NCBI RefSeq assembly: GCF_004217135.1
Contig: NZ_SHKK01000001.1
Span: 6,820,001-6,884,000, forward strand
Source of the DNA: Micromonospora violae
Lineage (GTDB): Bacteria; Actinomycetota; Actinomycetes; Mycobacteriales; Micromonosporaceae
Length of the DNA stretch: 64,000 nucleotides
Direction: 5' to 3'
The first letter of the stretch is position 1. Each line of letters begins with the position of its first letter. The position numbers and the translations under genes are program-made. The notes under the pieces are model-generated. The model searched no databases. It had not been told where the DNA came from and worked only from the letters and a program-made list of their open reading frames with translations. Shown in pieces: positions 33,825 through 64,000 of this stretch.

Positions 33825-34920
33825 CCCGCCGGTCGGTGTCTGCGGCGCGCGGCGATCGGGCGGCGGCCCGTGCGGTGGCGTGCAGGCGGAGGACGCCGGC
33901 GGCGGTCGCTCCGGCACCGGCGATCAGCACCGCCGCCACCATGACGCGGGCGACCTCGGGTGACCAGGGCACCGGGGCGATGGACCGGGCGAACACGGTG
34001 GCGTTCGCCGCGCCGGCGAAGAGTGCCAGGCAGGCCCCGGCCAGTGCCACCACGAAGTCGGCGGACGGGCGGCGGGCCAGCGCGTACCACCCGGCGGCGA
34101 TCGCGCCGAGCCCGGTGAGCAGTGACCAGACCTGCCCGGAGAGCAACCCGACCACCACCGGGCCGACACCCTGCGCGCCGGCGTCCAACTCGCGCCCCAC
34201 CGGGTACACCACGGCGACCGCGCCGCCGACGATCAGCAGCGCACCGAGCGCGGAGAGTGCTCGCCGACCGGCCGTCGCGGCGGCGGCGAGCAGGCCGAGC
34301 GCGCCCACCGCGAGCAGCGCCACGATGGTCACCGCCCACCAGGTGTACGCGTCCGGCGGCGGCACCCAGTCCAGCGTGCCGCCGATCATCACCGGGTCGG
34401 TGCCGTCGCGCAGCGGGATGGTCCAGTCCCGGACCCGGTGCTCGCGGTCCGGTGCGGCGCGTACCGCAGGTGGTGGCGTCGACTCCTGCCACAGTGCGCG
34501 CTGGTCGTGCCACCGCGCGGTGGTGCCGTCGGCGATGCGCCGCCAGGAGGGTGCGGCGGCCGGGTCGGCCTCGGCCGGGAGCGCGGTGTCCCCGTCGATG
34601 GTGCGGTTCAGGTAGGTGGCGGGGGAGCGGTCGTTCTCGAAGACCCCGTCCGGGCCGACGCGCAGGTAGGGCTCTCCGGAGTAGCCGATGACCTCGATGG
34701 TGCGCCCGGTGCGGTTGGTCAACTCCAGTCGGGCGCCCGCCTCGATGACGCGTACCTCAAGCCCTGGCCGCGCCGGCGCGACCCCGGTGGTCCGGGTGCG
34801 GTAGTCGGTGCCGTTCGGTGCGTCCGCGCCGTGCGCGGCGGCGGGGGCCGCGCTGATCAGGGTCGCCACGGCGGCTGCGGCGGCGACCAGGCCGGCGCGG
34901 CCCAGCAGGGTACGGATCAC
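33808..34920 (-). CDS. Secreted/membrane protein of the copper-type envelope module
   Basis: 370 residues: signal peptide ending PAAAHGADAP, an extracytoplasmic beta-rich region of about 185 residues (ITNR-like LELTNRTGRTIEVIGYSGEPYL), then four membrane helices. A His two residues after the predicted cleavage site would be at the mature N-terminus, as in CopC and YcnI, and could bind copper (inference). No characterised family. GTG start overlaps the DsbA-like gene stop (GTGA), so it belongs to that operon; convergent 17-bp overlap with cbiO. Confidence 0.8.
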   Translation of the reverse strand: MIRTLLGRAGLVAAAAAVATLISAAPAAAHGADAPNGTDYRTRTTGVAPARPGLEVRVIEAGARLELTNRTGRTIEVIGYSGEPYLRVGPDGVFENDRSPATYLNRTIDGDTALPAEADPAAAPSWRRIADGTTARWHDQRALWQESTPPPAVRAAPDREHRVRDWTIPLRDGTDPVMIGGTLDWVPPPDAYTWWAVTIVALLAVGALGLLAAAATAGRRALSALGALLIVGGAVAVVYPVGRELDAGAQGVGPVVVGLLSGQVWSLLTGLGAIAAGWYALARRPSADFVVALAGACLALFAGAANATVFARSIAPVPWSPEVARVMVAAVLIAGAGATAAGVLRLHATARAAARSPRAADTDRRATAAG

Positions 34921-35633
34921 TTGCCGGCCGCCGCCACGGCTGCGGTGAGAGCGTCCGGGGTGGGGTTCTCGACGCGCTGACCGTTGACCTTGACGGTCGG
35001 CGTGCCGGTGACGTTGCTCCGGCTGGCGTCGTCGGTGACGTGTTCGGTCCAACCCTTGTACGTCTCGTCCTTCACGCAGCTGCCGAAGGAGCCCCGGTCG
35101 AGGCCCACGCTGGTGCCGATGTCGATCAACTTGTCGTCGGTGAGCCCGGCGCTGCCCTCCGGCGGCTGCTGGGCGAAGAGCGCCTTGGCGTACTCGTGGT
35201 ACTTGCCGCCCGCCGCGGCGCAGCCGGAGGCGGCCGAGGCGCGGGTGGAGTACTCGGTGGTGGAGAAGCGGTTGAGGTACGCGACCGGGTGGTAGACGAC
35301 CTTTGCCTTGTTCTCGGCCACCAACTGTTCGAGCGTCGACCCGCTGGTCTCCTCGAACTGTTTGCAGATCGGGCAGAGGAAGTCCTCGTAGACGTCGATG
35401 GTGACCGGGCCGCTGCCGACGACGATGCCGGTGCCGGCGTCGTTGGCGCCGGGTGGGGTGGTGAAGTCGTCGGAGCGCTGGCTGGACCAGACGGCCCAGC
35501 CGATGACGCCGGCGATGAGCAGGACGACGACCGCGGCGGCGGAGACCCAGATCGTGCGGCGGCGTCGGCGCTCGCGGGCCAACTGCGCACGCACCACCCG
35601 GGCGGCGTCGCGCTGCCCCTTGCGACTACTCAT
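34917..35633 (-). CDS. Membrane-anchored DsbA/thioredoxin-like protein
   Basis: 238 residues: basic N-terminal cytosolic tail, one membrane helix (about 28-49), then a thioredoxin-fold domain with active site CPIC (87-90) in VYEDFLCPICKQF and the cis-Pro loop GTPTVKVNG. Resembles DsbA-type/DSBA-like oxidoreductases (Mycobacterium-type). Probably handles disulfides in exported cuproproteins. ATG 35633 lies inside the last codons of the upstream MauE/DoxX gene, so translation is coupled. Confidence 0.88.
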   Translation of the reverse strand: MSSRKGQRDAARVVRAQLARERRRRRTIWVSAAAVVVLLIAGVIGWAVWSSQRSDDFTTPPGANDAGTGIVVGSGPVTIDVYEDFLCPICKQFEETSGSTLEQLVAENKAKVVYHPVAYLNRFSTTEYSTRASAASGCAAAGGKYHEYAKALFAQQPPEGSAGLTDDKLIDIGTSVGLDRGSFGSCVKDETYKGWTEHVTDDASRSNVTGTPTVKVNGQRVENPTPDALTAAVAAAGK

Positions 35634-36150
35634 CCTCGTCCTCCACAACGGGTTCGCCGGACAACCACCCGTCCACGGATACCGGCGTACGCGGCCAGAT
35701 CAGCAGAAATCCGGCCAGAACCAAGAATCCCAGGTCCCGGAGGATCTCCGGGAGGTAACTGGGTGCCTGCCCCGCCGCCAGTTGCCCGCCGCTGCCGAAG
35801 CAGCCGCAGTCGATGGCCAGCCCGCGCGCCCAGGCCGAGGCGATCCCCGCGATGAAGACCACCAGCAGCGTGGCGGAGACCCCGGCGACGAGCCGGGTGG
35901 CCAGCCCGAGCAGCAGCAGCACGCCCAATGCCAGCTCGACGAAGGGCAGCGCCGCGCCGACCACGGTGGCCACGTCGTACGGCAACACCTGGTACGCGTT
36001 GACCGCCCGCCCGGAGGCGGCGAGGTCGCTGACCTTCGACGCGCCGGCGACCAGCCAGACGGCGGCGAGGCCGAACCGGGCCGCGAGGCCGAGCCAGGGG
36101 CGGACCAGGGGCCACCGGCCGCCTCGGGTGGAAGGTGCAGTCACGCTCAT
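35626..36150 (-). CDS. MauE/DoxX family membrane protein
   Basis: 174 residues, four membrane helices. VWLVAGASKVSD and FVELALGVLLLLG are DoxX/MauE hallmarks, and the loop IDCGCFGSGG supplies the Cys pair found in MauE-type proteins that exchange electrons with thioredoxin-like partners. Co-encoded with the DsbA-like protein, it may recycle it at the membrane (inference). Follows the ECF sigma gene by 32 nt. Confidence 0.88.
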   Translation of the reverse strand: MSVTAPSTRGGRWPLVRPWLGLAARFGLAAVWLVAGASKVSDLAASGRAVNAYQVLPYDVATVVGAALPFVELALGVLLLLGLATRLVAGVSATLLVVFIAGIASAWARGLAIDCGCFGSGGQLAAGQAPSYLPEILRDLGFLVLAGFLLIWPRTPVSVDGWLSGEPVVEDEDE

Positions 36151-54406: not shown

Positions 54407-57400
54407 TCAGTTGGGGTGGGTCAGGCGGGTGGTGATCCGCAAGCCCAGCAGGGTGTCGTTCAGCCACGGCACCCGTTCGTGGTGCAGACCGGCGGTCATC
54501 TGGTCCGCCCAGACGTCGTACCGCTGCATCAGCGCGACCGCCCGCGACCGCGCGCTGGCGATCAGACAGTCGCCGAGTGGGTCACCGGGCAGGTTGGACG
54601 CGTCCACCGCGGCCTCGCAGGGCAGCTTGAGGCTGACCTGGTCGCGGAGCGGGCGGCTGGGGTCGAGGGGGCACGGCGAGGGCCCGCAGAGGGCGTAGTT
54701 TCCGCTGGCCCGGGCATAGGCATTACCGATCTTGGCGTCGGTCGGCATGTTCACCGGTATCTGGTACTGCCCGAACAGGTTCGCGGACAACACGTCGTCC
54801 GAGTCGAGGGCGTTGGGCAAACCCAACCGGGTGTACGCCTGGAGCAGCCGCGCCGCCGTGTTCAGCTTCTTCAGGGCGGCGGGCACCGACCCGCTGACCT
54901 GGGTGCTCTGGTCGCGTACCCGGTCGTACATGGACTTCTGCCGGGCCTGGAGGAAACCGCGCAGGGTCGGCGTCAGCTCGGTGTCCAGTGCCGTGTTGTT
55001 CGTGGCCGTCGCGGCGCTGGCGAAGGCGTACCGGCCGGACGGCCACTTCGAGGTCAGGCCCTGCTCGGGTGTGGTTTCGCTGTCGCAGTTGAACAGCTCG
55101 CAGTCGATTCGGTAGACCTGCTCGTCGGGCCAGGTGTAGTCGGCGGTCCGCGAGTTCTGCCAGGCCGCGGTGGGGCTCAGCCGGAACCGGCTGTGGATCT
55201 GCAACCGCAGCTTGCCGTAGTAGCGGACCACCCCGGTGCCGTAGCCGGTCGTGCGGGTGTGCACCCAGCTCGGTGTGTAGCAGTAGCCGACCTCGGGCAA
55301 CTCCCGTACGCCGGCCGGCGGCTCGTCGGGGCGCGGCGTGTACGCGTACTGAAGTGTCCGCACCATGGGCGACATCAGGTCGTAGCGAACGTTGCTGGGT
55401 CGGTCGATCTGCCTGCTGCCGCCACACGAGGGCACCGTCGCCTCGTCGGCCGTCGCCGGTGCCGGGGCGAGGGTCTTGTCGGTGTCCCAGAACAGGTCGT
55501 AGTTCTTGAGCGTCTTCACCTGCACACCGTTGGCGTCCGGCTCCCAGCGGACCTGGATCTCGTTGCGGCGGAAGGCGGCCAGCGCGGTCGACAGCTCGTT
55601 GGTGGCGGCGACGTACTCGTCGACCAGCCCGCTGATCAGGCTGTTGGCGTTGCCGTCGACCGGGCGACCGAAGCTGGCCGCGAGGTCGGCGATGCGCGTG
55701 CCCTCCGCCTCGATCTGCGCCGCGCGGCCGGTGCTGACCTGGGCGGCGTACGTCGGGTTCTGCAGCATCACCATGGCGTACGCCTGCGCGCCGAGGTTCC
55801 AGACCGTCGGGTTGCCGACCGGCGTCGACGGTTCGACCATCGACGGGTCCCGCCCGCTGGCGATCCGGGCCAGGTAGTTGATCGATCGGGCCTCGCCGAA
55901 GCTGTTCAGCACGGTGGTCGGGTCGACCGCCGGGTTGTCGGCGTCGGTCCTGGGCACCACGAAGGCGGCACCGCTGGCCAACTGCGTCGCGGTCAGGTGG
56001 AATTCGTTCTCCGGGCCGACGAACTCGCCGTACGTCGGGATGGGCTGGCCGTAGTTCTCCAGGTAGCCGATGTACTGGTTGATGTCGGCGCGGGCGTCGT
56101 GCAGGGTGGCGTCGCCGATCGCGGCCAGGACGGTGGCGGCGATGTCCTCCAGGCGCAGGCCGAGCTGGGCGACCTGCTGCTGGACGAGGGTGATCTGTGC
56201 GGTGTTCCCGGCGATCGCCGCGTTCAGCTTGTCGAACTGGGCCATCATGTTCGCGTACACCGTGTTGATCTGGGCCTCGACCCGCGCGAAGCTGGCGCGC
56301 ATCTCGTCGCCCAGGGCCCGGACCTCATCGCGCAATGCTTTGACCTGGGCCAGAATCTGCGCGTCCAGCGACGGCGTGTTGCTGCCGAAGAGCCCGACGA
56401 CCGACATCACGGCACCGAAGATGTTGCCGGTCATCGCCAGCGTCGCGGTGCTGAAGATCGAACCGGCCAGTCCCCGGCCGGTGATGGCCGCCGCGTACGT
56501 GGAGATCGCGCTGATCGTGGTGAGGACCGCCTCGCCGATGACCTTCGACTTCTTCCCGGCGTCCGGGTCGGCGAACCCGATGATGGTGGACACCATGCCC
56601 ACCCCGGCCTTGATGTCGGAGATCGTCTGCTGCCGGTCCTTGTCGCGTTCCTCCGCGGCCTTCTTCGCCGCGGCGGTGCACGCAGCGCTCGGCGGTCCTT
56701 CGGGCGGACACTTCTGGTTGTTCCCGCCGATCTCGAGACGGATCTCCAGGCTCAGGCCGAGCAGTCGCGCGTGCAGGGAGGCCAACTGCTGTTTGGCCGC
56801 CGCGACGTACGCCACCGAGTCGCCCTGCAACGCCAGGATCGCGTCGAGGTCCACCTGCGAGAACCCAGGGTCCTGCGTGAGCTCGTCGTACGTGTTGGTG
56901 ACATCCACCCCGAACGGCTCACCGAGTACGGCGTTCCACGCGTCGGCGAACGGCGCGTTGGCCGCCCCCGCCTGCCGGACCGCGGACCACACCGCGGCGA
57001 GCGCGTCATCGCGCCCGCGCAGCCACTGGGCGGTGCGCAGCGCGCCGGAGGCGAGCTCCTCGCGGGTGTCCCAGGGTTCGACAGTCCTGCCGATCACGGC
57101 CCCGACCAGGCCGGTGATCTCCGGCGAGGTCCGGGTGTCGCCGCCGGGTGCACCGAGCAGGATGTCGACGGACTTGAGTAGCAGGTCCTGCTCGGGCAGC
57201 AGGACGTCGAACGCGGTCAGCGAGTTGTCGAGCAGCTGCTGGCGCGTCGTGAGCTGGGTCTGTACCTGTTTGGCCGTGGCGTTCGGGTGCAGTCGGTGCC
57301 ACTGGACGAATTCGGCTGACAGCACGGCGGTCTTGATCCGCGCTGCGCCCTGGATGTGGATCTCGGCAACCTGGCCGAAGGCCCGGTCGGTGAGCGCCGC

Positions 57401-57529
57401 CTGAGGGATGGGGACGGGGACGGGATCGGCCGAGGCGGGTTCGCCGAACAGCACGCTTGCGGCGGTGACCGCGATCATCGCCACCACGGCAGTCCCGCGC
57501 CTCGTACGCGTGGAACGTCTGATTGTCAT
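54407..57529 (-). CDS. Large secreted helical protein resembling alpha-pore-forming toxins
   Basis: 1040 residues. Signal peptide 1-34 (ending PASA, Asp35 mature N-terminus). Residues about 45-290 are helical with KxxEERDKDR-like charged stretches. From about 298 to 385 comes a long amphipathic/hydrophobic stretch (AGVGMVSTIIGFAD ... GNIFGAVMSVVGLFG), then a coiled coil (about 387-467: AQVKALRDEVRALGDEMRA). The rest (470-1040) is a large domain with paired Cys (YRIDCELFNCDS, CGPSPCP). Helix-hydrophobic hairpin-coiled coil is the plan of ClyA/Hbl/Nhe-type toxins. No family is recognised; a structural wall-associated role is the alternative. Probably leaderless (TACGTT, 6 nt, ATG). Confidence 0.8.
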   Translation of the reverse strand: MTIRRSTRTRRGTAVVAMIAVTAASVLFGEPASADPVPVPIPQAALTDRAFGQVAEIHIQGAARIKTAVLSAEFVQWHRLHPNATAKQVQTQLTTRQQLLDNSLTAFDVLLPEQDLLLKSVDILLGAPGGDTRTSPEITGLVGAVIGRTVEPWDTREELASGALRTAQWLRGRDDALAAVWSAVRQAGAANAPFADAWNAVLGEPFGVDVTNTYDELTQDPGFSQVDLDAILALQGDSVAYVAAAKQQLASLHARLLGLSLEIRLEIGGNNQKCPPEGPPSAACTAAAKKAAEERDKDRQQTISDIKAGVGMVSTIIGFADPDAGKKSKVIGEAVLTTISAISTYAAAITGRGLAGSIFSTATLAMTGNIFGAVMSVVGLFGSNTPSLDAQILAQVKALRDEVRALGDEMRASFARVEAQINTVYANMMAQFDKLNAAIAGNTAQITLVQQQVAQLGLRLEDIAATVLAAIGDATLHDARADINQYIGYLENYGQPIPTYGEFVGPENEFHLTATQLASGAAFVVPRTDADNPAVDPTTVLNSFGEARSINYLARIASGRDPSMVEPSTPVGNPTVWNLGAQAYAMVMLQNPTYAAQVSTGRAAQIEAEGTRIADLAASFGRPVDGNANSLISGLVDEYVAATNELSTALAAFRRNEIQVRWEPDANGVQVKTLKNYDLFWDTDKTLAPAPATADEATVPSCGGSRQIDRPSNVRYDLMSPMVRTLQYAYTPRPDEPPAGVRELPEVGYCYTPSWVHTRTTGYGTGVVRYYGKLRLQIHSRFRLSPTAAWQNSRTADYTWPDEQVYRIDCELFNCDSETTPEQGLTSKWPSGRYAFASAATATNNTALDTELTPTLRGFLQARQKSMYDRVRDQSTQVSGSVPAALKKLNTAARLLQAYTRLGLPNALDSDDVLSANLFGQYQIPVNMPTDAKIGNAYARASGNYALCGPSPCPLDPSRPLRDQVSLKLPCEAAVDASNLPGDPLGDCLIASARSRAVALMQRYDVWADQMTAGLHHERVPWLNDTLLGLRITTRLTHPN

Positions 57530-57550
57530 ACCGGGAACGTATTGAGCGGC

Positions 57551-57578
57551 CTGAAAGGGCGCTGAAACCGCGCTGACC
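57551..57578 (-). promoter_or_regulatory. Triple direct repeat at 11-bp period upstream of the secreted helical protein gene
   Basis: On the plus strand CTGAAA (57551), CTGAAA (57562) and CTGACC (57573), exactly 11 bp apart, just upstream of the -10-like TACGTT and about 22 nt from the start codon. Such phasing is typical of OmpR-type response regulators and SARPs. Confidence 0.55.
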
Positions 57579-57675
57579 CGCGTCCGGCGGGCCGGCGGAT
57601 CTGACCGCAGACGAGCGGCCGTCACACTCCGTTGCGCTAGATCGTCCAGGTGGCGACAACCACAATGGAGGACTC

Positions 57676-58045: not shown

Positions 58046-58762
58046 TCACCGGTCCAGGCTAGTGAGGCACCCGTCCCGCATCTGGACAGCCCGGTCGCAA
58101 CGTGCGGCGATACCGGTGTCGTGGGTGGCCATGATGAGGGTCGTACCCTGCTCGTCGCGCAGCCGCAGCAACAGGTCGACGATCGCGGTGCCGTTCTGAC
58201 TGTCGAGATTGCCGGTGGGCTCGTCTGCCAGCAACAGGGCAGGTTGACTGATCAACGCCCGGGCGATGGCGACCCGTTGCTGCTGCCCGCCGGAGAGCCG
58301 CGACGGCAGGGCAGCGGCCCGGTCGGCGAGCCCCACCATCGCCAGCAGCTCACGCGCGCGAGCGACCTTGTCGAAATCGGTGCGGAACGGAATCAGCGGC
58401 GCCATGACGTTGTCCAGGGCGGTGAGCGTGGGCAGCAGGTGGAACCGTTGGAACACGAAGCCGACCCGTCGCCGGTAGGCCGCCAGTGCCCGGCCGGACA
58501 AGCCGGTCACCTCCTGGCCGTCGACGTCGATCGTGCCACTGTCGCTCTGTTCGATGGCGCCGATCAGGTGCAGGAGCGTCGACTTGCCCGAGCCGCTCGG
58601 CCCGGTCAACGCGATCGCGGTGCCGGCGGCGATCGCGAGGCTGACGTCGTTGACCGCGACCAGCGGTGCTCCGTCGGGCAGCGGGAACGACTTCCGTACC
58701 CGCGTGAGACACACAAGCGGCATGGTGAGCGTGCTCGACGCCGCAGCTGACGTCCGTTTCAT
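58046..58762 (-). CDS. ABC transporter ATPase (MacB/LolD type)
   Basis: 238 residues. Walker A GPSGSGKST, Q-loop FQRFHLLPTLTALDN, signature LSGGQQQRVAIARAL, Walker B LLLADEPTGNLD, switch ATHD. The LPTLTALDNV and EPTGNLDS motifs place it in the MacB/FtsE/LolD subfamily that partners FtsX-type permeases. AAAGGAG lies 8 nt before the ATG. It follows the permease gene by 20 nt, and both follow the peptide gene. Confidence 0.94.
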   Translation of the reverse strand: MKRTSAAASSTLTMPLVCLTRVRKSFPLPDGAPLVAVNDVSLAIAAGTAIALTGPSGSGKSTLLHLIGAIEQSDSGTIDVDGQEVTGLSGRALAAYRRRVGFVFQRFHLLPTLTALDNVMAPLIPFRTDFDKVARARELLAMVGLADRAAALPSRLSGGQQQRVAIARALISQPALLLADEPTGNLDSQNGTAIVDLLLRLRDEQGTTLIMATHDTGIAARCDRAVQMRDGCLTSLDR

Positions 58763-58782: not shown

Positions 58783-61635
58783 TCACCCCTCGGCGAGCAG
58801 GTGGGCGGTGGGCAGTCGGCGGAGCACGGCGATCGGCACCACCACCGACAGGGCGGAGACGGCGACGCCGAACACCAGGGCGGCTCCAGAACACCAGAGG
58901 ATCGGAACGGTGACGCCCCCGGCGAAGACCGCTGCCGCGCCAAGGCCGGCAGCGGCACCGAGCGTGCCGCCGATGGCGCCCATGCCGACGGCCTCGATGA
59001 CGACCAGCCGGTTCAGCATCGCGTCGGTCCAGCCGACGGCACCGAACAGGGCGAACTCGGCGGCGCGCTCGGAGATGTTGAGATAGAGCACGTCGGCGAC
59101 CGACACGATGCCGAGCACGATCGTGACCGCGACGGCGATGTGATCGACGGTGCGGGCCTGGAGGGTGACGGCATCACCGAGCAGGGTGCCGGTGATCGCC
59201 CCACGGAACGCGAACGTGATCGCCAACAACATGGTCAGGGCGGCCACCCCGATCATCAGACTCAGCGCGCCGAGGCTGGTCCGACCGGGAGTGCGGGCAA
59301 GGTTGGCCAGGGCGAGGGTAGCCAGCCCGCGCGGCGCCTGCCGGCGGAGGGCGAGACCCGAGACGGCGGGTCGGATGATCTCGCCGGGGTCCGGGCGGGC
59401 CGCCCGCCAGGCCGGCCAGCCGCCAGCGAGCAGGGCAAGGGCCACCGCTGAGGGTACGGCGAGCAGCGTGTGGCTCCACGCGATGTTCAGCCCGAGACCG
59501 AGCGCGATCCCGAGCGCCAGCCCGCTGCCCGCGAGGCCGGCGGCGAGACCGATGCCGACGATCTCGATGAACATCAGCTGGAGTAGATGTCGCCGGTCCC
59601 ATCCGAGGCAGGTGAGGATGCCGAACTCGGTGCGTCTGGCGCGGATGGCGGCGGTGTTGGCATTGAGCACCGCCAGCGCGCACACCGCGAGCACCAGCAC
59701 GGACAGCAGCACGCTCTTGCGATCGGCCGCGCGGACAAGCACGGACGCGACGCCCTTCTGCACCCAGGGCTCGGCCACGGCGAGGTCGGGCCGGCCGTAG
59801 TTGCCCGCCGGGTAGTGCACAGTCATCGCGGTGGGGGAGGACCCCAGGGTGATGTCGACCTGTAAGCCGGTGCGTTGCGCAATCTCCTCGGCGATCACAC
59901 GGACCCGCTCCCGGGAGACCGGGTCGATGCCGACGTCTCCGGCCAGCCGGACGCGTACCACGCTGATCGGTGCGGTGGTGTTGAGTTGGTATTCCGGGTA
60001 GCTGGGCTCGGTGCTGTACGCGCCGGAGTCGAAGATGGCCGGCAGGGCCGCCATCGTGGTCAGCATCAGCGGTGGTTGGCTGAGCAGGCCGGTGACGTTC
60101 GAATTCGGGGCGAGGCGTCGGCCGCCCAGCGCCTGCCGTGACGCTTCGTCGGCGCCCTCGGCGCCCGGGTTGAAGTACGTGTCCATGGGCACCGCCGACA
60201 GCGCACTGCCCAGCGAAACCTTGGCGGGGTCGAAGGTGCCCACCGCGCCCAACGCCGCGTCCGGCATGCTCACGTCCCCGGGCTGCGGCTCGTACCCGTG
60301 CGCCAGGTTGCGATGGATGGCGACGCCACTTCGCACGCTGGTGTCGGCGAACTCCATCGGCACATGTCGGGACGATCCGCCGTCGTCCGCGCCCTGACCC
60401 CAGATCTTCAGGTCGTACGGATCTGGCTGGGCGCGCAGGCCGTCCCCGGCGGCGACCCGCTTTGGCGGCCCGACGGTCCAGAACTGGTCGAGCCACATGG
60501 TGTTCGTCGTTGCCAAGTCGTATTCGACGCCCAGGTCTCCCGGGTGGAGCATCCGGTTGACCATGTCCTGGTACGGCCCCGTCACCGACGTCGACTTCTG
60601 GGCGATCGGGGTGCCGGACTCGTCGCCGAGAGCCGCGCGTAGCCGCTGGTCGTCGGCGGACGTCCGGACCAGTTCGGTCGCGTCCGGGTTCAGGCGCTGC
60701 ACGGTGACGTCGAGCGTCCTGTCGACCTGAGGTCGGTCCGCGATGAGGATCGGGAGCACCGAGTAGGGGTACGGCATTCCGTCCAGTCGCCGCGACGTCG
60801 GCGCTTCGGCTGAGGTGAAGTATCGGCCCGAGGTGACGGCCTGGTCCAGTCCGGCCAGCGCGGCCTCCGACTCCGGGTCGACCGCGGCCATCAGGAGCGG
60901 CACCGTCCACGCCAACCTGACGGTCGGCCGCGTCGCCTTTCCCTCGCGATCCGTCGAACCCATGCCACCGACGCACGTCAACGACGATCGGGCGCGCAGG
61001 TCCGTCGGTGCGAGCCAGTCGTCCGTGGCGATGGCCGCCGCCGCTGGGCAGATCTTGACCCGCTGGCCGTCGGCGTCGACCTCCTCCGGTGGTGGCAGGC
61101 CCCCGCCGCTCTTCAGCTCGCTGTTGGGCACCACGTCCAGCCGGTTGCGCGTCGCATAGAGAAACGCCGGTCCGTCCGGGATCTGGCTCAGCCCGGCGTC
61201 CGTCACCCAGGTCGGCTGGACCCGCAACACCTGACGCTCGGCGGTCGGGTCAAGGTGGTCCGACAGGTCGACGGTCACGGGCACCGTGCGCATCACGTAC
61301 CCGACCATCGCGACCGGTGCCGCCACCGACACCCCACGCACCGCCTGGATCTCGCGCCACTGATCGTGGGTGATGCCGCCACGCATACCCGCCAACTGGC
61401 CCGACTGGACCAGATTGCGTTCCTGCTCCAGCGGCAGCACCGCGTCCTTCGGGCGGACCAGAAGGTCGTAGACCGGGCGGTAGTTGGCGCTGACCGCGCC
61501 AACCGCATCCAGCCGGGACGTCACCGCGGCCCCGGTGAGCAGGGTGAACCCGGCTACCGCGACGGCGATCATCGAGAGCAGGGCCAGCGACCGGCGCAGC
61601 CGTACGCGCCATTGCGACGCGGCTATCCCCAGCAT
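58783..61635 (-). CDS. FtsX/MacB-type ABC permease, large extracytoplasmic domain
   Basis: 950 residues: first helix about 15-38, a very large extracytoplasmic region (about 40-640), then helices at about 650-680, 700-730 and 740-760, and a second FtsX block with helices near 810-840, 855-880 and 905-945. ARRTEFGILTCLGWDRRHL and SERAAEFALFGAVGWTDAM are the coupling motifs of two FtsX modules. MacB-like pumps expel peptides or lipoproteins by mechanotransmission; the link with the adjacent peptide is inference. ATG preceded by GGGGGA at about 12 nt. Confidence 0.92.
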   Translation of the reverse strand: MLGIAASQWRVRLRRSLALLSMIAVAVAGFTLLTGAAVTSRLDAVGAVSANYRPVYDLLVRPKDAVLPLEQERNLVQSGQLAGMRGGITHDQWREIQAVRGVSVAAPVAMVGYVMRTVPVTVDLSDHLDPTAERQVLRVQPTWVTDAGLSQIPDGPAFLYATRNRLDVVPNSELKSGGGLPPPEEVDADGQRVKICPAAAAIATDDWLAPTDLRARSSLTCVGGMGSTDREGKATRPTVRLAWTVPLLMAAVDPESEAALAGLDQAVTSGRYFTSAEAPTSRRLDGMPYPYSVLPILIADRPQVDRTLDVTVQRLNPDATELVRTSADDQRLRAALGDESGTPIAQKSTSVTGPYQDMVNRMLHPGDLGVEYDLATTNTMWLDQFWTVGPPKRVAAGDGLRAQPDPYDLKIWGQGADDGGSSRHVPMEFADTSVRSGVAIHRNLAHGYEPQPGDVSMPDAALGAVGTFDPAKVSLGSALSAVPMDTYFNPGAEGADEASRQALGGRRLAPNSNVTGLLSQPPLMLTTMAALPAIFDSGAYSTEPSYPEYQLNTTAPISVVRVRLAGDVGIDPVSRERVRVIAEEIAQRTGLQVDITLGSSPTAMTVHYPAGNYGRPDLAVAEPWVQKGVASVLVRAADRKSVLLSVLVLAVCALAVLNANTAAIRARRTEFGILTCLGWDRRHLLQLMFIEIVGIGLAAGLAGSGLALGIALGLGLNIAWSHTLLAVPSAVALALLAGGWPAWRAARPDPGEIIRPAVSGLALRRQAPRGLATLALANLARTPGRTSLGALSLMIGVAALTMLLAITFAFRGAITGTLLGDAVTLQARTVDHIAVAVTIVLGIVSVADVLYLNISERAAEFALFGAVGWTDAMLNRLVVIEAVGMGAIGGTLGAAAGLGAAAVFAGGVTVPILWCSGAALVFGVAVSALSVVVPIAVLRRLPTAHLLAEG

Positions 61636-61676
61636 CGACGCACCCTGTCCCCCATCGTGTGGCCTTCCAGCATGCC

Positions 61677-61710
61677 GCCGCCGACCGGACGGTGAGGTCC
61701 GGTCGGCGGC
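61677..61710 (-). terminator. 14-bp hairpin between the peptide gene and the exporter operon
   Basis: GCCGCCGACCGGAC (61677-61690) and GTCCGGTCGGCGGC (61697-61710) with a 6-nt loop, 16 nt after the peptide stop codon. Probably an attenuator or RNA 3'-stabiliser that lets the peptide be expressed far above the transporter. Confidence 0.8.
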
Positions 61711-61726
61711 AGTGAATCGACGATGA

Positions 61727-61942
61727 TCAGCAGCAGCCTACGGTGTAGCTTACGGAAGGCGCGCTACAGCTCTTCGCCGTGTTGGCGTAGCAGCGAACCT
61801 GACCCGCTACCTCCTTGGTGTAGTAGTAGTAGCAGAAGGGCCCTCCACACCCGGTGTAGGCGAGGCTGCAGATGTTGCACGCGGACGCGGTGGCCTTCGG
61901 CAGCAGCGCGGCCAGTAGCTTGTCGCTCAACCTGTTGATCAT
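61727..61942 (-). CDS. Cysteine-rich peptide precursor (candidate RiPP or disulfide-rich peptide)
   Basis: 71 residues. An amphipathic leader-like segment (MINRLSDKLLAALLPKATAS, 1-20) precedes a 50-residue Cys-, Tyr-, Ser- and Thr-rich core beginning at Cys22, with Cys at 22, 25, 32, 37, 51, 59, 70 and 71 (spacing C2C6C4C13C7C10CC) and a run of four Tyr at 38-41. There is no double-glycine site; ATASA before Cys22 could be a cleavage site. Strong SD (GAGGAGAGG) supports the 61942 start; a longer frame from 61999 exists without one. Flanked by exporter genes and a SARP regulator. I know no named family for it. Confidence 0.8.
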   Translation of the reverse strand: MINRLSDKLLAALLPKATASACNICSLAYTGCGGPFCYYYYTKEVAGQVRCYANTAKSCSAPSVSYTVGCC

Positions 61943-62003
61943 TCGACCTCTCCTCTTCTCCGCCGGTACGGCGGCTTGTCTACAGGGGCACGATGTCATC
62001 GAC

Positions 62004-62031
62004 CGCTTACGATCCGCTAACGCTGCGCTAC
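62004..62031 (-). promoter_or_regulatory. Candidate SARP-binding direct repeats upstream of the peptide gene
   Basis: Minus strand: GTAGCG (62031-62026), GTTAGCG (62021-62015), GTAAGCG (62010-62004), starts exactly 11 bp apart. Eight bases further downstream CATCGT could be the -10, the spacing known for SARP-activated promoters. The leader to the ATG would be about 40 nt and includes the SD. Confidence 0.7.
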
Positions 62032-62050
62032 GCCCACGTGGGTTCCGGTG

Positions 62051-62821
62051 TCACTGCGGGTTTCCGGCGCGAATGATGCTGACCAGGCGGCCGATTCGTC
62101 GGCCAGGTGTGACCCCGAGGTCGCCGGCCAGGATTCCGCATAGCTGGTCGTGGGCGGCCAGGGCGGCGGCGACGTCGCCGCGTCTCATGTGTGCCTCGAT
62201 GAGATGCTCCCAGGCCCGCTCCCGGTACGGCCATTGGCGGACGAGGGGCTCCATCGCGTCGATGACGGAGTTGTGGTCACCGAGGACGAGTTGCGCCTCG
62301 GCGAGATCCTCCATTGCCCGCCACCGTCGCTCGTCCAACGACGCCGCCAGCACCGCCACCCCGGGCGAGCGGGCGTCGACGCAGGCATCCCCGCGCCACA
62401 GCCGTAGTGCCGCGGAGAGGGCCGCGACCCGGCCATCGGCCCCTTCGGGGAGGCGTGCGGCGGCTCCACGTCGCATCAGCTCGTCGAAGCGGGCGAGGTC
62501 GGTCGACGCGAGACGCGCGCTCAACACGTAACCCGGCGGGCGGGTCTGCAGGATGTGCACGGCATCCGGGCCGCCGAGTCGTACGAGGCTCTGCCGCAGG
62601 GCGGAGATGTGCCCCTGCAGCTTCGTCGTCGCCGTCATCGGCGGATGGTCGTCCCAGATGACTTCGATGAGACGGTTGACGCCGACCACGGTGTCCAGGT
62701 TGAAGGCGAGTGCCGCCAGGAGCGCCCGCCGTCCCAGGCCGCCGACGGGCATCGGTTGCCCGCCGACGGATGCCTCGATCGGACCCAGCAACGACACTCG
62801 GAGCAGCGTGTTAGCGTTCAC
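62051..62821 (-). CDS. SARP-family transcriptional activator (winged HTH plus BTAD)
   Basis: 256 residues: an OmpR-like winged helix (about 5-95: LRVSLLGPIEASVGGQP, GRRALLAALAF, LQGHISALRQSL, GYVLSA) and a bacterial transcriptional activator domain (about 100-250: DLARFDELMRRGAAA, ERAWEHLIEAHMRRGDVAAA). SARPs switch on secondary-metabolite clusters by binding 11-bp direct repeats next to the -10; such repeats lie just beyond its 3' end, before the peptide gene. GTG start overlaps the ABC exporter stop (GTGA), so both are co-translated. Confidence 0.93.
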   Translation of the reverse strand: MNANTLLRVSLLGPIEASVGGQPMPVGGLGRRALLAALAFNLDTVVGVNRLIEVIWDDHPPMTATTKLQGHISALRQSLVRLGGPDAVHILQTRPPGYVLSARLASTDLARFDELMRRGAAARLPEGADGRVAALSAALRLWRGDACVDARSPGVAVLAASLDERRWRAMEDLAEAQLVLGDHNSVIDAMEPLVRQWPYRERAWEHLIEAHMRRGDVAAALAAHDQLCGILAGDLGVTPGRRIGRLVSIIRAGNPQ

Positions 62822-64000
62822 ATCGAGGTCCGAGTGGAGATCGCGTCGTCGTAACCGGACGCTTGGAGAAGGAACAGCTCTGCATAACGTCCTCCCGCTG
62901 CCATCAGCTCGTCGTGACTGCCCTGTTCGAGGATGCGGCCCTGGGACAGGACGGCGATGCTGTCCGCCTCCCGGACCGTGTTGAGCCGGTGAGAGATGAG
63001 CAGGCTGGTGTGTGTGCGACGCAGCGACATCAGCCGTCGGTTGATCTCGTGCTCGGTCTCCACGTCGAGACCGGACGACGGCTCGTCGAGGATCAGCATG
63101 TCGGCCTCCTCGCGGAGGGCGGCTCGGGCGAGGGCCAGCCGCTGCCACTGCCCGCCGGACAGCACTACGCCCGCCCCGCTGGCGTCGCCGTCGCTGAAGG
63201 CTCGCGTCAGCATGGTGTCGTACCCGCGCGGAAGCGCGTTCAGGGCGGAGTCCAGGTCGGCAGTGCTGGCCGCCGCCCGTACTCGCGCGCGATCGTCGAG
63301 GGCGCTGATGTCGCCGACCGCGATGTTGTCGTGCGCGGAGAACTCGTACGTCATGAAGTCCTGGAACGTCGCCCCGAGGCGAGCGCGCAGCGACGCCGGG
63401 TCGATGGTGGCGATGTCGACGCCGTCCCACCGGATGACGCCCTTGTCCGGTATGTGGAAGCCGCAGAGGAGTTTGACCACTGTCGACTTGCCGGCGCCGT
63501 TGTCGCCCACCAGCGCGAGAGACGAGCCGCTGGGGATCCGCAACGTGAGGCCCTGTAGCACCCAGTCGTGCTCGGGGGCGTAACGGAACCAGACGTCGTC
63601 GAACTCCAGGCCCTGCCGCAGCGGCGGCAGGGCAGGCAGCGGAGCGGCACGCCGGGATTCGCGGATCACGGCGGTGATGTCGACGTAGTGGCCGAACACG
63701 ATCATCGTCTCGCCGAGCATCGCTATCTGCCGGACCAGGCTAGACGCGGACGTCTGCAACGCGGTCAGCGCCGCGATCACGACCACCAGGTCGCCGGCGG
63801 TGCCCTGCCCGGATGCCACCCGGGCGACGAAGACGGCCAGCGCGCCCAGCGACACGACGCCGGTCAGCGTCGCGAGAGCGCTGTCGACCCACAGGGCCAG
63901 TCGGTCCTGATGGCGCTCCTGCGCCTGGGCCGCCCGCAGCTCCCGCAGAAGACGGCCCTGAAAGAACCCGCCGAGCCCGAACAGTCGGATCTCCTTCGCG
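62818..64000 (-). CDS. ABC exporter (TM-NBD half transporter), N-terminus beyond right edge
   Basis: About 393 C-terminal residues are visible. The frame is open to the window end and already contains membrane-domain sequence (KEIRLFGLGGFFQGRLLREL, then two helices). NBD: Walker A GDNGAGKST, Q-loop FQDFMTYEFSAHDNI, signature LSGGQWQRLALARAAL, Walker B MLILDEPSSGLD, switch ISHRL. It resembles exporters of lanthipeptide and other RiPP clusters; whether an N-terminal C39 peptidase is present cannot be seen. Followed by the SARP gene with a 4-nt overlap. Confidence 0.92.
   Translation of the reverse strand, partial: AKEIRLFGLGGFFQGRLLRELRAAQAQERHQDRLALWVDSALATLTGVVSLGALAVFVARVASGQGTAGDLVVVIAALTALQTSASSLVRQIAMLGETMIVFGHYVDITAVIRESRRAAPLPALPPLRQGLEFDDVWFRYAPEHDWVLQGLTLRIPSGSSLALVGDNGAGKSTVVKLLCGFHIPDKGVIRWDGVDIATIDPASLRARLGATFQDFMTYEFSAHDNIAVGDISALDDRARVRAAASTADLDSALNALPRGYDTMLTRAFSDGDASGAGVVLSGGQWQRLALARAALREEADMLILDEPSSGLDVETEHEINRRLMSLRRTHTSLLISHRLNTVREADSIAVLSQGRILEQGSHDELMAAGGRYAELFLLQASGYDDAISTRTSM

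Follow-up and report, generated by a model that had tools for sequence, protein, structure and literature searches.

The window analyzed here is a stretch of 64,000 nucleotides, bases 6820001-6884000 of a Micromonospora genome that consists of one contig of 7.14 Mb. Together with the bases just past its end, it probably holds a gene cluster under SARP control, whose product is a secreted peptide rich in disulfides. The precursor is a real conserved gene of this genome, the gene set around it is recurrent, and the active-site motifs of the encoded proteins, an operator-like box and a hairpin are conserved. Judged by sequence, an antimicrobial or another peptide used in competition is the most likely product.

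A conserved precursor gene with eight cysteines

The precursor gene is preceded by a ribosome-binding site, which was read from the sequence:

61727..61942, minus strand: precursor peptide gene, 71 amino acids and stop (codons 61942-61730); leader of residues 1-21 with ASA at its end, core of residues 22-71 with eight Cys
61947..61954, minus strand: ribosome-binding site AGGAGAGG, preceding the 71-residue start

A mechanical list of open reading frames gave 90 amino acids for this frame, beginning at an ATG further upstream. We favour the 71-residue start because of the AGGAGAGG site (61954-61947) and the N-termini of the homologues. The 71-residue precursor with eight Cys in a 50-residue core, as proposed in the preliminary description, is thereby confirmed on the minus strand. 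Homologues with conserved Cys had been set beforehand as a refutation test, and they exist: a search of about 5.8 billion proteins yielded 10, which are 68-96% identical with E values down to 2.7e-37, and 8/8 Cys are invariant across the 11 aligned precursor rows. The homologue P0008 has one Cys more and one Tyr fewer. Among eight orthologues, pN of the core was lower than pS in 26 of 28 pairs, the exceptions being the two diverged pairs L043-L046 (0.40/0.36) and L043-L047 (0.40/0.40); leader pN was lower than core pN, also in 26/28 pairs. The homologues, the invariant Cys and the low core pN place the gene beyond chance. This near family is present in 8 of 151 Micromonospora genomes, with the genome studied here and one decayed copy included. 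Searches of the precursor against Pfam, NCBIfam and PDB sequences gave no match, and the earlier statement that its Cys spacing belongs to no described family holds for these collections.

Genes surrounding the precursor

The machinery genes lie on both sides of the precursor and continue beyond the window, where window-equivalent numbers equal the position in L005 plus 55999:

58046..58762, minus strand: MacB-type ABC ATPase, 238 amino acids from the chosen start, PF00005 E 1.1e-36
58783..61635, minus strand: FtsX-type permease, 950 amino acids, PF02687 E 1e-18, conserved in L007-L011
62051..62821, minus strand: SARP-type regulator, 256 amino acids, BTAD PF03704 E 9.9e-29 and Trans_reg_C
62818..64000, on to window-equivalent 64632, minus strand: ABC exporter, TM-NBD, 604 amino acids in full
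window-equivalent 64629-65180, minus strand: TlpA-like thioredoxin, membrane-anchored, CRHC, beyond the window edge
window-equivalent 65220-65765 (L005:9221-9766), minus strand: MauE, PF07291 E 3.7e-23, beyond the window edge
window-equivalent 65795-66394, plus strand: S26 signal peptidase, diverging from MauE, beyond the window edge

The window edge falls inside the exporter, and the cluster extends to window-equivalent 66394; the next gene found past it encodes a family 3 glycosidase. Transcription along the minus strand follows the order MauE, TlpA-like thioredoxin, ABC exporter, SARP, peptide, FtsX permease and MacB-type ATPase. The MacB-type ATPase and FtsX permease described earlier on one side of the precursor, and the SARP and ABC exporter on the other, are all present on a single strand, the minus strand. 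The genes past position 64000, which had likewise been set beforehand as a refutation test, are the rest of the exporter, the TlpA-like thioredoxin, MauE and S26, and are not unrelated. MauE has a CxC motif and four predicted membrane segments, and the only Pfam domains of the exporter are ABC_membrane and ABC_tran. The order S26-MauE-TlpA-ABC-SARP-peptide-FtsX, followed by the ATPase ORF, was found in 5/5 Micromonospora loci (L007-L011).

A second MauE (35626-36150, minus strand; PF07291 match) is located elsewhere in the window, beside a DsbA-like CPIC protein (34917-35648, minus strand). These two genes, at window 34917-36150, look like a general oxidative-folding pair. A 1072-residue open frame with a signal-like N-terminus (window 54407-57625, minus strand) adjoins the cluster.

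The same gene set recurs around related peptides

Counted within 8 kb at 79 loci, TlpA was found at 68, S26 at 65, the ABC exporter at 64, MauE at 55 and SARP at 48, and MauE, TlpA, ABC and S26 occurred together at 52/79. Since the HMMs were built partly on the first 59 loci (MauE 36, TlpA 49, ABC 45, S26 46, SARP 36, FtsX 10, MacB 11), 20 further loci were counted separately. These gave 19 each for MauE, TlpA, ABC and S26, 12 for SARP, 2 for FtsX and 4 for MacB. In 20 control stretches, taken from 20 of the same genomes, MauE, TlpA, ABC, S26, SARP and FtsX scored 0 and MacB 3. Eight of the 79 loci are without any of the five core neighbours, namely the decayed locus L049 and seven peptides of G026, G004 and G007, which are genomes with many peptides.

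The active-site motifs are retained almost throughout: CxxC in 68/69 TlpA, CxC in 55/55 MauE (CxCF in 54) and the serine motif [GS]xSMxP in 65/65 S26 peptidases. The S26 lysine (KR) motif was matched in 64/65 by a looser pattern and is visible in the last, whereas a narrow pattern matched 16/65. A pattern search found the C39-like motif absent from 65 related exporters.

Neighbours were also clustered without labels, using ORFs of at least 100 amino acids within 6 kb at the 79 loci, a size limit by which smaller genes would be missed. The resulting groups covered ABC/MacB at 66 loci, TlpA at 63, S26 at 55, MauE at 47, SARP at 43 and FtsX at 11. All other groups present at more than six loci consisted of frames overlapping those genes, wholly or, for one group (11/14 ORFs), mostly; a further widespread neighbour family was not seen in the 79 loci by this clustering. 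Pfam scans of the cluster genes detected no LanM/LanB, radical SAM or YcaO domain. Of the maturation by disulfides or by enzymes that had been envisaged from the window alone, the disulfide option agrees with these two results and is favoured, and a RiPP with heavy modification is not in keeping with them. A true RiPP, the Cys of which are additionally converted into thioethers or other cross-links by enzymes with genes outside the cluster, would agree with the leader-core design and with the proposal from decRiPPter, in the accessible part of that paper, that MauE/MauD help to modify RiPP precursors (PMC7794033). We nevertheless regard it as improbable, since no such enzyme is among the cluster genes, the 79 loci share no additional widespread neighbour and the Cys numbers described below are even.

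One leader precedes hypervariable cores

A first profile, A1, matched 29/250 genomes of the bacterial family (E 0.01), and many of its weak matches are peptides that share the leader but have very dissimilar cores. Its matches numbered 40, of which 38 places besides the window's own were taken with flanks, the last one lying inside a stretch already taken. Profile A2 was built from 32 peptides of this leader family. It matched 93/250 genomes of the bacterial family (E 1e-4), 27/394 genomes of the class (E 0.003; two of the 27 judged false) and 2/296 genomes of the phylum sample (E 1e-4; own genome included), and the leader family is therefore concentrated in some actinomycete families. Of the 58 class-level A2 matches listed, 40 were taken with flanks. 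Against the protein collection, A2 found at least 29 proteins at E 0.1 among the best 7983 candidates scored. Comparison of the 32 members with NCBIfam and Pfam returned stray single-member matches only (best E 0.096 and 0.038, respectively). One class-level peptide is 93% identical to a peptide on a plasmid of Streptomyces sp. NBC_01727, and its genus (g70) is therefore probably Streptomyces. The annotation of the plasmid at this place reads redoxin, hypothetical protein, MauE/DoxX, TlpA, ABC transporter and S26 peptidase; an AfsR/SARP gene lies on the opposite strand.

The common leader pattern is centered around L-G/A-DR-L/M-L...P...AxA. In 70 representatives, D is present in 96%, R in 87%, L at D+3 in 89% and P at D+8 in 96%. 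At the leader end, A occupies -3 in 99% and -1 in 100%, both values being too high as a result of leaving out rows that lacked a recognised AxA (5/114: L063, L124, P0026, P0028 and P0029; L124 has VxA). The decayed L049 was left out of the Cys count, and L102 was left out of the 71 clusters, giving the 70 representatives. The leaders are not strongly hydrophobic, with a best 12-residue hydrophobicity mean of 0.87 on average and 1.75 at maximum.

The cores are hypervariable and contain 4 to 10 Cys. The Cys number is even in 69/70 core clusters and in 44/44 later peptides, which were selected for having four or more Cys; odd counts are found in L076/P0012 (7) and P0008 (9). The 70 clusters show 16 Cys orders and 65 distinct Cys spacings with no common motif. 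Cys makes up 16.5% of core residues, as might also be expected of a metal-binding or redox Cys-rich protein. Such a protein is, however, very improbable as the product, given the exporter and S26 peptidase at most loci, the leader ending in AxA and the absence of a common spacing. The order C-C-CC-C-C, which is known from cystine-knot peptides, occurs in 6/70 clusters and is seen in the distant cores L113-L116, L122, L158 and similar ones.

Predicted structure and relation to known systems

AlphaFold models of the precursor reached a mean pLDDT of 77.9 (49.7-77.9 over five models; 82-90 for the core blocks) and showed four strands besides a leader helix; the core alone gave 67.8 and three strands. 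The leader helix is a prediction only, covering residues 3-21 at a pLDDT of about 55. The core is predicted with moderate confidence to be all-beta and was compared with the alpha-beta defensin fold. Searches of solved folds with the predicted peptide structure gave no significant match.

The peptide probably belongs to a known kind, the leader-bearing disulfide-rich bacterial peptides, since decRiPPter had already joined mauE with Cys-rich precursors. In the accessible part of that study (Kloosterman et al. 2020, PMC7794033), three candidate families of Streptomyces that carry mauE, one of them together with mauD, are described by prediction only; their precursors have at least eight Cys, and a disulfide role of MauE is mentioned. 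The window cluster resembles them in having MauE beside a precursor with at least eight Cys (PMC7794033, in part). The common leader, S26 peptidase, exporter and SARP box found here are not described in that part of the paper, and our set spans 16 Cys orders and several actinomycete families, the precursors being compared by description only (PMC7794033). Our literature search returned decRiPPter as the only work joining mauE with Cys-rich precursors, and no experimental description of such families; papers beyond the searched library may exist.

Actifensin and the Actinomyces defensins are likewise small Cys-rich peptides with leader, core and disulfides, and they form a hypervariable family with ABC transporter genes nearby (PMC6989792, PMC8819291; both in part). 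According to the same parts of these sources, they differ in having six Cys in a defensin pattern and a GA-type cleavage motif, and their clusters encode a subtilisin-like protease and a LuxR regulator, with MauE, TlpA and S26 unmentioned there (PMC6989792, PMC8819291). By regular expression, the window peptide does not match the defensin pattern C...CxxxC...C...CxC; 2/70 clusters (L064 and L102) match it, by pattern only. Double-glycine class II bacteriocins have a short leader, a dedicated ABC exporter and, in some members, disulfides. Here, ASA instead of GG/GA/GS precedes C22, the S26 peptidase is separate, and the window exporter has no C39 domain in Pfam, in contrast to C39 exporters.

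The MauE family (PF07291) with a thioredoxin-like partner is also found in the maturation of methylamine dehydrogenase, the light chain of which is rich in disulfides. The presence of MauE and a MauD-like thioredoxin could thus point to a relic of this system, in which a light-chain-like subunit is served by the two proteins. We consider such a relic extremely improbable: the peptide matches neither PF02975 nor any other Pfam family, none of the PF02975 scores in the genome passes the cut-off (the highest is 16.5 bits versus 25), the fold searches were without significant match, and an exporter and S26 peptidase replace the mau enzymes. For MauE/MauD themselves, oxidative maturation of a Cys-rich product is cited in the accessible part of PMC7794033.

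An operator-like box and a hairpin flank the precursor

Two regulatory elements were located next to the precursor gene:

62004..62032, minus strand: probable SARP operator, CGTTAGCG-N3-CGTAAGCG at 62022-62004, 11-bp step
61675..61712, minus strand: stem-loop, 16-bp stem and 6-nt loop, directly after the peptide stop codon

A third, weaker half of the putative operator lies at about 62032-62026. SARPs read such tandem repeats. A tandem CGTTAGCG-like box is present 74-105 bp upstream of the peptide in 14/14 near-clade loci (of the 79 in total). Since these loci also supplied the motif, the test lies in the remaining sequence of each locus and in the controls: at the same threshold, no further box turned up in the 14 loci and none in 398,019 control bases. 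When tested for a triple repeat, 10/14 loci gave a significant result (p 0.03 or less), and the remaining four have two copies.

The hairpin after the stop codon is strong and folded in 14/14 loci, with a compensatory change in 7/21 predicted pairs (6 aligned sequences). It is a probable terminator or RNA stabiliser and may set peptide output above FtsX output.

The FtsX/MacB pair and the function of the peptide

FtsX is found in 12/79 and MacB in 15/79 loci, mostly of the near clade. Given these counts, and MacB also in 3/20 controls, immunity by this pair cannot be a general feature. In L049 (G191), the peptide has decayed, with an in-frame stop and the leader lost, and the 19.9 kb read contained no match to SARP, exporter, TlpA, MauE or S26 apart from ATPase-domain matches. 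This locus retains intact copies of both FtsX (85% over 948/950 aligned residues) and MacB (86.6% over 238 residues), with dN/dS of 0.17-0.24, comparable to intact loci (0.20-0.24). L049 is a single locus and could reflect recent loss. Protection of the producer is the probable role of the pair.

Secreted and cross-linked by disulfides in the same way, the peptide might instead be a signal or an enzyme inhibitor, or have a surface or morphogenetic role. The activity of the peptide is deduced from sequence, the FtsX/MacB pair is confined to the minority of loci given above, and SARPs control many processes. We judge a function outside competition to be unlikely, as the patchy occurrence of the near family in Micromonospora, the hypervariable core spacings and the retention of FtsX/MacB in the decayed L049 fit competition better.

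Proposed maturation and export of the peptide

For a competition peptide, we infer the cleavage site, the disulfides, the redox direction, immunity and activity as follows. Binding of the SARP to the tandem CGTTAGCG box would activate the precursor gene, and the leader would bring the precursor to the dedicated ABC exporter. Being not strongly hydrophobic, the leader is unlikely to be a plain Sec signal. The cluster-encoded S26 signal peptidase would cleave after AxA, outside the membrane, and the anchored thioredoxin (CxxC) together with MauE (CxC) would convert the eight Cys into four disulfides by oxidation. What speaks against an oxidising role is that reductases are common among TlpA-type proteins. 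The FtsX/MacB pair would provide self-protection of the producer.

If this scheme holds, a large class of secreted peptides rich in disulfides exists in actinomycetes and is unnamed in NCBIfam and Pfam, with the leader as a simple search handle and the cores as candidate stable scaffolds. It also makes testable whether a single exporter, together with one peptidase and one redox pair, can mature many different Cys frameworks.

Many peptides in single genomes

The genome studied here carries a second member of the leader family (3187668-3187865, plus strand; loci L108 and L110) with eight Cys, accompanied by its own SARP, TlpA, ABC, S26 and MauE. In other genomes, leader-profile matches were far more numerous, with at least 25 in G007, 24 in G026, 21 in G083, 20 in G075 and 15 in G004. 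Exporters at E < 1e-100 numbered, among the best candidates (up to 150 scored), 1 in G007, 2 in G026, 1 in G083, 1 in G004 and 19 in G075. By a strict pattern, 44 peptides were recognised in 40 stretches (G007 12, G026 14, G083 7, G004 6, G075 4, G066 1), with none in stretches L193 and L195.

The venom-peptide superfamilies of conotoxin type offer an analogy only, with a constant leader, a hypervariable Cys-framework core and many paralogues per genome; a sequence relation is not shown, and bacterial ABC export and AxA cleavage set the present peptides apart. We consider it quite possible, though we do not quite lean towards it, that they form a bacterial counterpart, in which one leader and one disulfide/export station would serve arsenals of unrelated-looking cores. 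New cores could then evolve without new machinery. Because many peptides face one or two strong exporters in some of these genomes, a shared station probably serves many peptides there in trans, whereas in G075 most peptides probably have their own. G004 has one S26-ABC-TlpA-MauE station, with no recognised peptide within the 20 kb read, and in G007 the exporter is accompanied by S26 only, with MauE located elsewhere.
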